Assembly (NCBI GenBank): GCA_039961635.1
Contig: JABRWB010000084.1
Location: 1-46,625, forward strand
DNA length: 46,625 nt
DNA from: a bacterium
GTDB lineage: Bacteria; 4484-113; JAGGVC01
Direction: 5' to 3'
The position numbers and the translations under genes were made by a program. Of the stretch, positions 30,206 through 46,206 are shown piece after piece. The notes beneath the pieces were generated by a model. The model was given only the letters and a program-made list of their open reading frames with translations, was not told the origin of the DNA and did not search any database. The number at the start of each line of letters is the position of its first letter. Position 1 is the first letter of the stretch.

Positions 30206-32629
30206 TTAGCTTCCTTGGGCCGGGTCAACCCTGTACAGCAATCTAAGCCGTCGATTGCCATTCCCGGCATCACCTCCTGTTTCAGAAATCAAAACGTAAG
30301 AGTTGTTTGGTCCGAATGCGCAATAATCCGAAACTACACCGTTTGAATCCCAATCGGCGCTTTTTGGAGCGTATATGGTCTCGATATGAAACCAGTCCGA
30401 TTCAAACGTGCATATGCGTACATTCCAGGATTTTGGTTCTGTGGTCTGGGACGGGGAGTTATCGTCCCTGTACATGAGGCTGGGCGTTTCATTGACGTTC
30501 ATCGGATACAACATGACGCTTTGCACAGGGTAATCCGGATTTGTAAGATCATAGGTATTTGAACCGGTCGAGCCAACACTGAGAAGCTGCAATCCATACC
30601 CATCCATTATTCCATCCCAGGTCTGTATTGGCACCCAAGCTGTCTGATCGGGGCCAAATATCAATTTGAAATATCTAATGCTATCGAAGCCTTCAAATTG
30701 CCCTGAATCCCACCTTTCTCTCGTCCACTCCCCGGAGCCATTCGAAACGGCGATCCAAACTTGCATTTGGTCTCCATTTTGACTGTGTCCCAAATCAAGC
30801 GGTGCCCCAATGCCTCCATCGGGAAAAACGCTTAGGTCACCCAAACGAGCGTCCTGTTCCTTGGTGTCCCAGTTTGCGTCCAGAACCGTCCAATTGCCGT
30901 TGTCGTATGTAAGGAAATAGTACTTGTAATTGGCAGTTTCGCCATCCCCGGAATACTGATCAGCGGCAAGGATTGTGAAGTGCCCTGGGCCATATTCAAT
31001 ATGCCAGTTATATTTCGAACCTCTAGGTGTTGTAGGAGGTTCTGAATAACCTTCAAATACAAGTTTCAATTCCCATTGTCCCAAACCGTCCTTTCGGGCA
31101 GATAGAAGCCTGCTCACGCCCAGGCTTTTCGCCTCAATAAGTACTAGCGGTTTGCAGTTTTCATCCCAGAATACAGCCACCTTTTGAGCTCTGCCGTAGT
31201 CCTTGCCTTCGGCATACGACCATTGAGGATCGTTTTCCCCAATCACTTTTTCAAATTCCCATACTCCAAATCCATGCCGCCAAACGAGCCACGCCCCACG
31301 TTCAAGTGGCGGATAATTGTTGTTCCAAACAGGCCCGGCTCCAACCGTTTCGCCTGAAGATGGATCAAGGGAAAGTGACATAGGACCAAAAGGCGCGCCA
31401 GATCCTGTCCACGAATAAAACGCATCCCCCAACCATCCCGCCACGCCTAGCCTATTTCTTATACTGCTTTCCTCCGCCTTGTCGTCAACTACCGTCACCT
31501 TTGGATAGAAGTAGTTTTCATTACCCGTTCGGCACTTCCCGGTGACAATGCCGGGAGATGCGCCAATTGCTATATCCTCCACCAGCCCGGCACTTGATTC
31601 CGCTGGCGGTTCTGGATCAAGCGTGGAATAATCCTGTAGTCCGTCGCCGTCAAAATCGAACCTATGCTCGGCAATCGTTCCATCCGGATCGTTGCTAAGC
31701 GACGCGTCGAATGTCACATCGAATGGCGCTGCGCCGTAGTCAGGTGTTATTTTTAATCGGGCTATAGGCGACTGGTTGATTTCGCCTGTCGCCGGGTTTA
31801 CCGACACTGCGGGTGAGGCAGGCCCATCCTGGTTGGTTGCTTCATCGTAAGAAGCAACATAGAAACTCACAATCCCGTCTGTGACCGAGCCGTCCTCGAA
31901 CGCGTATCTGACCGGCAATGCGTTGCCGGGTACTGAGGAACGCGGAATTGTCACCGGCGAAGCCAGATCGTCAGGATTCGGGACGAGGGAGTACGAAACC
32001 TCTCCCGGCCCTTTGCGGTAAATCCGCCAGCCGTCGAGGCGCTCCATCCAGTGCAGCGCGATAGGCGTCACGTCCTGCATCCCCACTTCTCCATCCGCAT
32101 TGCCGTCTATACGCGCTTTGCGCCAGTTCGCGGCTTCCGCGCCGTCAGGATCGCCAATCGGCCAGTAATCGTATCCCGCGGCTTCAATCGGTAGACGGTA
32201 AGTAACGGATGCAAGCCAATTGAGTGCAATAGGTGTAATGTCGGATATCCCTACTTCGCCGTTTTGGTCGTAATCGCCAAGCATCCGCTCCGTCCACGAA
32301 AGCGACACGCCTTCGGGCGGCAGCGGCCCCGCCGGGCCGTCGGGATCAATAATGGAGGCGGAAAGGTCGAACACCGCGTTGTCGTTTCCGGTGGGAGCGG
32401 ATGCGGGCTTGCGCTCCGGGTCTATTCCCAGGCGGGCGAATTCGCTTTGGAGTGACGAGCGAAGCTCGTCTATCCTACCGGCTGCGGATGCCGATTCCGT
32501 TTCCGGCGATTTTCCCGCCGACGGAGAGCCTAGGCGGGATTTGCCGTGGCATGAAACGCACAACCCCATGAGCGCAACGAACAACAGCGCTCCGGCCGCA
32601 ATGCTCCCAAATGCTTTTCCCGTTGCCAT
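30206..32629 (-). CDS. Exported dockerin-like/PKD-like multidomain protein
   Basis: An 807-residue secreted protein with an N-terminal hydrophobic signal (AAGALLFVALMGLC). Near residues 115-185 there are two dockerin-like calcium loops, GDYDQNGEVGISDITPIAL and DGNADGEVGMQDVTPIAL, each with the Asp/Asn positions of an EF-type loop; a fibronectin-like part (WRIYRKGPG) follows. Near 290-380 is a PKD-like fold (FDASLSNDPDGTIAEHRFDFDGDG). The last 400 residues have several Trp-rich beta repeats (blade-like). No catalytic motif. Dockerin-like loops of this DITPIAL kind recur in MAGs of candidate phyla without cohesins, so the partner is unknown. ATG 32627-32629 has GAGGA before it. A hairpin follows the gene. 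Confidence 0.7.
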   Translation of the reverse strand: MATGKAFGSIAAGALLFVALMGLCVSCHGKSRLGSPSAGKSPETESASAAGRIDELRSSLQSEFARLGIDPERKPASAPTGNDNAVFDLSASIIDPDGPAGPLPPEGVSLSWTERMLGDYDQNGEVGISDITPIALNWLASVTYRLPIEAAGYDYWPIGDPDGAEAANWRKARIDGNADGEVGMQDVTPIALHWMERLDGWRIYRKGPGEVSYSLVPNPDDLASPVTIPRSSVPGNALPVRYAFEDGSVTDGIVSFYVASYDEATNQDGPASPAVSVNPATGEINQSPIARLKITPDYGAAPFDVTFDASLSNDPDGTIAEHRFDFDGDGLQDYSTLDPEPPAESSAGLVEDIAIGASPGIVTGKCRTGNENYFYPKVTVVDDKAEESSIRNRLGVAGWLGDAFYSWTGSGAPFGPMSLSLDPSSGETVGAGPVWNNNYPPLERGAWLVWRHGFGVWEFEKVIGENDPQWSYAEGKDYGRAQKVAVFWDENCKPLVLIEAKSLGVSRLLSARKDGLGQWELKLVFEGYSEPPTTPRGSKYNWHIEYGPGHFTILAADQYSGDGETANYKYYFLTYDNGNWTVLDANWDTKEQDARLGDLSVFPDGGIGAPLDLGHSQNGDQMQVWIAVSNGSGEWTRERWDSGQFEGFDSIRYFKLIFGPDQTAWVPIQTWDGIMDGYGLQLLSVGSTGSNTYDLTNPDYPVQSVMLYPMNVNETPSLMYRDDNSPSQTTEPKSWNVRICTFESDWFHIETIYAPKSADWDSNGVVSDYCAFGPNNSYVLISETGGDAGNGNRRLRLLYRVDPAQGS

Positions 32630-32711
32630 GCTTATCCTCTTTTAATGCCGTCACACCATTATAACGCCGCTGTCCGGCTAATGCAAAGAAAAACCACTCA
32701 AATATATATAC

Positions 32712-32731
32712 CGCCGATCTCCAGATCGGCG
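32712..32731 (-). repeat. REP palindrome, copy downstream of the RAYT, inverted orientation
   Basis: CGCCGATCT and AGATCGGCG are perfect 9-bp arms around CC. On the minus strand it continues into GGTATATATAT, the same tail seen in the three plus-strand copies on the other side of the RAYT gene. It lies 26 nt after the RAYT stop. Confidence 0.75.
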
Positions 32732-32756
32732 TATCCCCGGATACAATCATGTTCCC

Positions 32757-33221
32757 CTACTTCATCCCGGCCGTCCAAACGTACGGATACTCCTCCCATC
32801 TTCTCGCCAGCTTCGCCTCAACCGGATTCATCAGAATGTATTGCCACGCCCTCGCAAGCGCTTTTTCGCTTACGATCACCCGGCTGAAGTAGTTGTCCAG
32901 CCACAGGCTGCCGGTCTGCCCCGCGGCGGCGTTGATTTTGCGCGCCGAATACTTCTTGATCGACGCGACGATTTTGCCGATGTCGTGGCGCCGGTTCGAA
33001 TCGGGCAGAAAGCAAGGCTGCAGAAGCATGTGGAAATGGTCGGGCATTACAACCGCCGCATAAAGGGCGAACCGCTCCCCGCGGAAAAACTTTATCGAGT
33101 CGAGGGCGATCGCGCGCTCTAGCCCGGTGAGCTTCCGATCCTTGCCTGCGGATGACGTGATGAAGTATGCGCCTCCGTCGTTCTTGATTCTGGAAAGCCT
33201 TGGGAATTCGGTTTCGGGCAC
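32757..33221 (-). CDS. REP-associated tyrosine transposase (RAYT, Y1/HUH family)
   Basis: A 154-residue transposase of the TnpA-REP/IS200-like group that nicks and rejoins single-stranded REP palindromes. The HUH motif is H62-F63-H64 in VVMPDHFHMLLQP, and the likely nucleophile is Y91 in SIKKYSARKIN. YILMNPVEAKLA near 128-139 and the YPY end are typical of RAYTs. Length fits the family. No TnpB is present. It is bracketed by REP palindromes: one inverted copy 26 nt downstream and a tandem of three upstream. GTG 33219-33221 stands six nt behind TATAAT, a leaderless arrangement, and this box resembles the tail of the REP unit. Confidence 0.9.
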   Translation of the reverse strand: MPETEFPRLSRIKNDGGAYFITSSAGKDRKLTGLERAIALDSIKFFRGERFALYAAVVMPDHFHMLLQPCFLPDSNRRHDIGKIVASIKKYSARKINAAAGQTGSLWLDNYFSRVIVSEKALARAWQYILMNPVEAKLARRWEEYPYVWTAGMK

Positions 33222-33227
33222 GGATTG

Positions 33228-33233
33228 ATTATA
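33228..33233 (-). promoter_or_regulatory. -10 box placed for a leaderless GTG start of the RAYT
   Basis: Minus-strand TATAAT, six nt, GTG 33221. A CTGACT element 16 nt upstream lies in REP-unit-like sequence and could serve as -35. The same CTGACT and TATACC spacing occurs inside each REP unit. Confidence 0.5.
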
Positions 33234-33246
33234 TGACCTATTTGGC

Positions 33247-33382
33247 TTAAGTCAGCACGCCGATCAGGAGATCGGCGGTATATATTTTGATTATATTTAA
33301 CTCAGCACGCCGATCAGGAGATCGGCGGTATATATTTTGATTAGGTTTAAGTCAGCACGCCGATCTGGAAATCGGCGGTATA
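33247..33382 (+). repeat. Tandem array of three 50-bp REP units
   Basis: Three units begin at 33247, 33297 and 33347, a strict 50-bp period. Each has TTAA(G/C)TCAGCACG, a palindrome CGCCGATC...GATCGGCG, then GGTATATATTTTGATT. The first two palindromes (33258-33277, 33308-33327) have 8-bp arms and loop AGGA. The third (33358-33377) is diverged (CTGGAA core, 7-bp arms) and the unit is cut short after GGTATA. No spacers of unrelated sequence are present, so it is not CRISPR. Confidence 0.85.
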
Positions 33383-33413
33383 AGACCAAATGAAATCGCG
33401 GCTTGCCGCTTGC

Positions 33414-45943: not shown

Positions 45944-46198
45944 GGCGCACTGCGTGCGCCAGTTATATGGAGTGCGCCAATTTATTGGCGCTTTGGAAGG
46001 AGGCCCGGCGGCCCCCCGGGATACCTTATCTCCCCAGCGATGAATCGCCGGAATTAAGGCGGAATTGAAATTCCGCACTCCCATATTTGGACTGGCCCGC
46101 GCAGCGGGCCTTTGTATCGGCCGCGGAATCACGCGGACTCCGTAGGCCGGGCGCTCCGCCCGGATACATCCTTCCATATAGCGACGGTCTCCAGACCG
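45944..46198. repeat. Cluster of eight short palindromes in an intergenic region
   Basis: The 317-nt gap between the genes at 45889 and 46207 holds, in order: GGCGCAC/GTGCGCC (45944-45960), GCGCCAAT/ATTGGCGC (45974-45991), CCCGG/CCGGG (46004-46020), GCGAT/ATCGC (46037-46048), GCGGAATT/AATTCCGC (46059-46076), GGCCCGC/GCGGGCC (46094-46110), CCGGGCG/CGCCCGG (46147-46163) and CGGTCT/AGACCG (46185-46198). Most have loops of two or three nt. None is followed by a U-tract. They look like decayed REP/BIME elements; no ORF is seen. Confidence 0.65.
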
Positions 46199-46206
46199 GC
46201 GCGAAT

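Follow-up and report, generated by a model that had tools for sequence, protein, structure and literature searches.

Few repeats in bacterial chromosomes are as common as REPs, which are chosen and spread by the REP-associated tyrosine transposases (RAYTs). The REP tag is usually described as nearly fixed as GTAG, and classical REP families often exceed 100 copies per genome. The close known systems for the locus described here are the REPtrons, or TnpAREP-REP systems (RAYT group 3, Quentin subclass 2.5), including those of S. maltophilia and the Marinomonas Mb system of PMC8266576. They combine a short RAYT (median 151 aa) bearing a DHFH motif with short perfect-palindrome REPs that have a small loop and stand in the order REP-rayt-REP, and with dispersed intergenic copies and head-to-head dimers (PMC6006769, PMC3733652, PMC2817692). 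The locus which we analyzed, part of a 46,625-nucleotide stretch of bacterial DNA (the window), shares all of these features, its RAYT being 154 aa long. It departs from REPtrons in that the tag is ATATAC rather than GT[AG]G, the W-Q motif of the enzyme reads W-L, the counterparts of E100/D and R104 have been lost, and the host belongs to a small, little-sampled phylum. The GTAG-contacting residues of the E. coli enzyme are Q95, E100 and R104 (PMC6006769, PMC8266576), with which L, S and V are aligned in the window RAYT. A switch from GT[AG]G to ATATAC implies an altered guide-recognition region in the enzyme.

Two other described groups deserve comparison. The atypical REPs of TnpAY1 subclass 2.6 and class 3 are likewise REP-like hairpins that adjoin the gene and lack GT[AG]G, but they are described as weaker in structure, whereas the window hairpin is strong; furthermore, subclass 2.6 proteins carry NH[LIV]H and YIH[QN]NP where the window RAYT has DHFH and YILMNP (PMC6006769). 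TIRYTs, within their TIRtrons, are likewise tyrosine transposases between inverted non-GTAG repeats. TIRtrons, however, possess long terminal inverted repeats, many with GGGGWSAS, in place of the short self-complementary hairpins seen here, and TIRYT subclass 2.1 has a C-terminal HTH-like extension which the window RAYT lacks (PMC3733652). The original prediction, made from the window sequence, placed RAYTs with REPs in the Proteobacteria. They are indeed known there, but are not restricted to that group: tagged REPs have been reported in 8 phyla (PMC3733652), and several RAYT subclasses occur across phyla (PMC6006769).

The RAYT gene and its product

The features of the locus, and one further REP copy in the window, are as follows.

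32704–32731, plus strand: downstream REP, 5' tag ATATATAC then hairpin CGCCGATC-TCCA-GATCGGCG; inverted relative to the upstream array, tag outward; ssDNA fold z = -4.7
32757–33221, minus strand: RAYT gene (REP-associated tyrosine transposase), 154 aa, GTG start, HUH motif DHFH, tyrosine motif YILMNP
33228–33255, minus strand: promoter-like CTGACT-16-TATAAT, 10/12 consensus matches (0.3 expected)
33247–33396, no strand assigned: three direct 50-bp units containing REP copies 1–3, starting at 33247, 33297 and 33347
33258–33285, minus strand: upstream REP copy 1, nearest the RAYT start, tag outward; ssDNA fold z = -5.6
33308–33335, minus strand: upstream REP copy 2, hairpin identical to that of copy 1
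33358–33385, minus strand: upstream REP copy 3, one stem pair broken, consensus loop, tag TATAC; ssDNA fold z = -3.8
46174–46201, plus strand: fifth, dispersed REP copy, between other genes

In a profile search the RAYT scored 89.6 bits against NCBIfam NF047646 (REP-associated tyrosine transposase), above the cut-off of 80, and it also matches Pfam Y1_Tnp (PF01797). Its HUH motif DHFH and its class-2 tyrosine motif Y-x3-NP (YILMNP) are both intact. An AlphaFold model built from five sequences (pLDDT 88, pTM 0.83) had as its best PDB chain 4er8_A (E 4e-9, probability 1.00), which is E. coli TnpAREP in complex with a REP hairpin; the next-best fold matches were the ISDra2 and IS608 transposases. 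A single-protein sequence search of the PDB gave no match, whereas the fold search did. Profile, fold and catalytic motifs thus bear out the identification of the HUH transposase as a RAYT.

The promoter-like sequence ends 6 nt before the GTG start codon and overlaps the edge of the first 50-bp unit. Judging from its consensus match, it would give a leaderless RAYT mRNA. The gene is flanked by a 1080-aa PDZ/tricorn-like ORF and an 807-aa lipoprotein-like ORF, with no TnpB beside it. The 807-aa ORF (30206–32629, minus strand) displays dockerin-like repeats (YDQNGEVGISDITPIALNWL ...).

REP copies at the locus

One inverted REP downstream of the gene and three direct 50-bp units upstream had been predicted, and the coordinates agree. 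The downstream palindrome (32712–32731) lies close to the RAYT stop codon as proposed, though the gap is 25 nt and not 26; the three upstream palindromes (33258–33277, 33308–33327 and 33358–33377) are in the opposite orientation to it. A pattern search of the whole window allowing up to 3 mismatches returned 9 matches against 0.05 expected, and the ssDNA folding of the REP copies exceeds that of all shuffles.

As predicted, the first two tandem palindromes are identical. The third, which had been called decayed, differs from them at 2/20 positions: one change breaks a stem pair, but the other gives the loop the T that is consensus across the genome, and this copy is therefore not clearly decayed. 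Over their full length the second and third units are 94% and 78% identical to the first, the lower value being largely because the array ends there. The three units have in common a flank, TTAAGTCAGCA, which is absent from the dispersed REP copies, and this argues that the array grew by local tandem duplication and not by three insertions. Head-to-tail REP repeats have been reported as rare (PMC3733652).

The genome-wide REP family

The genome comprises 2.78 Mb in 100 contigs, for which reason the REP copy counts given here are lower bounds. The palindrome pattern matched 18+14 times across it, against 1+1 for the reversed pattern. A covariance model built from the aligned copies recovered 25 with E < 0.01 together with a few lower-scoring ones, or about 26 genome-wide. 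This number is low compared with classical REP families, which in many genomes have more than 100 copies.

The REP unit is a sharp-edged 26 nt consisting of ATATAC followed by CGCCGRTC-TCCW-GAYCGGCG, that is, an 8-bp hairpin with the loop TCCW. GTATAT 3' of the hairpin (equivalent to ATATAC 5' on the REP strand) is kept in nearly all dispersed copies. This tag, which the original prediction had overlooked, lay outside the search pattern, and information content is near background beyond it. The tetranucleotide GT[AG]G was absent from the hairpin foot, where nearly all copies have ATATAC instead. In the stems 92.8% of cells are paired, with 8 double changes, a value which none of 500 shuffles reached. 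The dispersed copies were also examined for a fixed dinucleotide at which cleavage might occur, either 3' of the hairpin or 5' of the tag, and nothing beyond multiple testing emerged.

By codon-usage gene calls, 22 of the 27 REP sites examined are intergenic, and several dispersed copies lie no more than 30 nt from a stop codon or in the gap between two convergent genes. Pairs on contigs C5, C12 and C21 are arranged head-to-head with tags outside, as in REPIN/HH dimers; such dimers predominate among REPs (PMC3733652). The phylum sample comprised ten genomes including the window's own, and in the other nine the covariance model found nothing better than E = 0.18. Nor was any member of the family present in the 1.5 kb to either side of the genome's other four RAYTs. 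The search for further REPs that had been proposed therefore yields about 26 copies, with only the window's RAYT, among five, having the family nearby.

Nature of the locus

We interpret the locus as a REPtron, in which a single-copy RAYT and the REPs that belong to it form a source-like locus for the hairpin family of about 26 copies, and would put the probability of this reading at roughly 85%. The gene lies between inverted copies of one hairpin family, and this family is dispersed and mainly extragenic. Each part of the source-like locus that had been proposed is present: a RAYT, REPs in both orientations as its substrates, and tandem units that grew by local duplication. The term "domesticated" would also suit a gene with intact catalytic motifs and no near-identical second copy. 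The locus is filed as a RAYT and a REPtron and not as a GTAG-tagged REP family, because the GT[AG]G tag which defines the latter was looked for and not found. The kind of system is already known, but here it has the tag ATATAC in place of GT[AG]G.

A decayed REPtron, in which the RAYT is inactive, the REPs are fossils and the tandem units arose by slippage only, is the strongest of the alternatives, though we think it unlikely. The modest copy number, the broken stem pairs of several dispersed copies, and the flanks common to the tandem units, which point to ordinary duplication, would all be accommodated by it. However, the ORF is intact with both catalytic motifs, the locus hairpins and several dispersed copies are near-identical, and the stems vary with compensation.

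That the hairpins are intergenic transcription terminators or RNA-stabilising elements, with the RAYT merely among them, appears very improbable to us. Two of the tandem copies do score as terminator-like on the plus strand, and several dispersed copies stand a few nucleotides past stop codons or between convergent genes. The genes here, however, are on the minus strand, on which the hairpin is followed by TGCTGACT and not by a T-run; what is conserved is the loop and the sharp-edged GTATAT tag without a U-tract; the hairpin family is missing from all nine sister genomes examined; and the inverted, tag-outward layout is common to RAYTs with unrelated hairpins. An IS200/IS605-type element with subterminal hairpins, mobile as a unit and with solo ends or MITEs scattered about the genome, would share the HUH fold class and the Pfam Y1_Tnp match, but we give it very little credence since the score against NF033573 (IS200) is 22.3 bits for a cut-off of 55 whereas NF047646 passes, the gene is present once and has not multiplied as an IS does (identity to the genome's other RAYTs does not exceed 44%, the nearest being 38–44% identical, and hence not recent copies), the hairpins are inverted and not in direct LE/RE order, the tyrosine motif is Y-x3-NP (class 2) and not Y-x3-Q, and no TnpB adjoins the gene.

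If the locus is a REPtron, the most likely mechanism is the following. When the locus becomes single-stranded, for example as lagging-strand template, the strand carrying 5'-ATATAC-hairpin would fold, and the RAYT would bind the hairpin, with the conserved TCCW loop and the ATATAC foot as its probable contacts. The tyrosine of the enzyme would then cut and rejoin the single-stranded DNA beside the repeat, and in this way REPs or head-to-head REP pairs would be copied or moved into intergenic sites. The RAYT gene itself would stay put while the REPs spread without it. Cutting, strand choice, tag recognition and mobilisation by the window RAYT are thus proposed by analogy; the mechanism of REP recognition and cleavage comes from in vitro work on three other RAYT/REP pairs (PMC8266576).

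Other RAYT/REP systems in the same genome

Besides the window RAYT the genome carries four further RAYT-like genes, 28–44% identical to it. All except that on contig C1 have their own hairpins in the same inverted, tag-outward order. The C1 relative (G000:C1:91293-91592; L027) has lost its N-terminus, its second HUH histidine is replaced (NHFL), and an automatic scan found weaker flanking hairpins; from its sequence this locus appears to be a decayed REPtron, and is the closest to the window RAYT in the tree.

A second REPtron surrounds the C38 RAYT (G000:C38:29439-29879; L026), with hairpins CGCGGCC-TTCA-GGCCGCG and the tag CCGGGAAG in most copies. Its pattern gave 54 matches with up to 3 mismatches (11 in the control), 27 of the 54 having no more than 2. 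Many of these REPs lie within 350 nt of contig ends (C4, C24, C38, C41, C44, C47 and C67), and it is probable that longer repeats containing them broke the assembly. Several CCGGGAAG REPs (L093, L100, L112) are followed by a common string like TTCAATCCCAATCGGG, which hints at a longer dispersed repeat. The third REPtron is that of the C91 RAYT (G000:C91:307-594; L029), with the tag TGGGAGT and 35 pattern matches against 1 in the control. Its copies are dispersed, some of them in tandem clusters (C59:782-968, C5:40397-40738). At least three RAYTs of this genome therefore have a REP population of their own, none of them with GTAG.

In a likelihood tree the window, C38 and C1 RAYTs form one supported group (98/97) with L063, a RAYT from a sister genus. 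The tags within this group are ATATAC, CCGGGAAG (CCAGGAAG beside the gene), AGGAG and AAGAGA. Rewriting of the tag may have taken place in three or more RAYT/REP systems of the genome (ATATAC, CCGGGAAG and TGGGAGT), the window RAYT, its two genome-mates and the sister-genus RAYT making up one four-tag clade, so that the tag would evolve freely with the enzyme and the systems would be mutually orthogonal. We regard the odds on this proposal as about even.

Tags in a wider set of RAYT loci

Our survey covered 179 RAYT loci from the window's phylum, the Verrucomicrobiota, the Planctomycetota and a few others. A matching inverted pair of tag plus hairpin on both sides of the gene was present at 81 of these, against 0–1 in partner-swapped controls. 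The tags of the 81 were GT[AG]G in 41, GGAG in 18 and neither in 22, the last group including some doubtful calls; non-GTAG tags are thus common among the surveyed loci.

A one-residue code, in which Gln at E. coli position 95 would specify a GTRG tag, was considered and rejected as a general rule. Gln95 went with the tag in a first set (19/19 GTRG vs 8/25 others, p = 1.6e-6). A phylogeny-aware test gave 3–4 concordant pairs and none opposite (p >= 0.125, with few pairs), and a second set of 80 loci, whose tags were called by a slightly revised script, showed no such link (12/7 vs 8/8, p = 0.5).

RAYTs inside larger genes

Forty-four of the 179 RAYTs are embedded in frame in a larger ORF that stays open for 100 codons or more to either side; where the host profile was searched, it often fell into two segments, one before and one after the RAYT. 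In six Verrucomicrobia genomes a RAYT splits the only copy of alaS at one site, TIGR00344 position 373 / 378–380 (L030:555-4076(+), L140, L141, L144, L159 and L142). Five of the six are uninterrupted frames of 1099–1316 aa, the sixth (L142) being split over contigs. The embedded RAYTs have intact HUH and tyrosine motifs, and inverted GGGGAGC-type hairpins were recovered for most of them. To judge from these reading frames, the transposase apparently forms an internal domain of an essential synthetase.

Other in-frame hosts include recG (L139, L143), leuS (L145, L172 and, called by eye from sequence, L129, L156, L161 and L162), valS (L171 and, also by eye, L173), ispG/GcpE twice (L132, L237), the metH activation domain twice (L135, L217), alaS at another site (L186, L261), restriction/methylase genes (L148, L155, L163, L182, L196) and a creatininase. 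An SNF2 helicase in the window's own phylum (L073) also hosts an in-frame RAYT. REPs inside genes, including those of tRNA synthetases, were already known (PMC3733652), and long RAYT proteins have been noted and then discarded as fusions or annotation errors (PMC6006769). A partial literature search turned up no account of RAYTs that retain their catalytic motifs inside essential synthetases.

Implications

Surveys which search for GT[AG]G alone miss REP families in under-sampled phyla. The four-tag clade of related RAYTs would offer a natural set for enzyme/substrate swaps, through which guide recognition and the choice of cleavage site could be approached.
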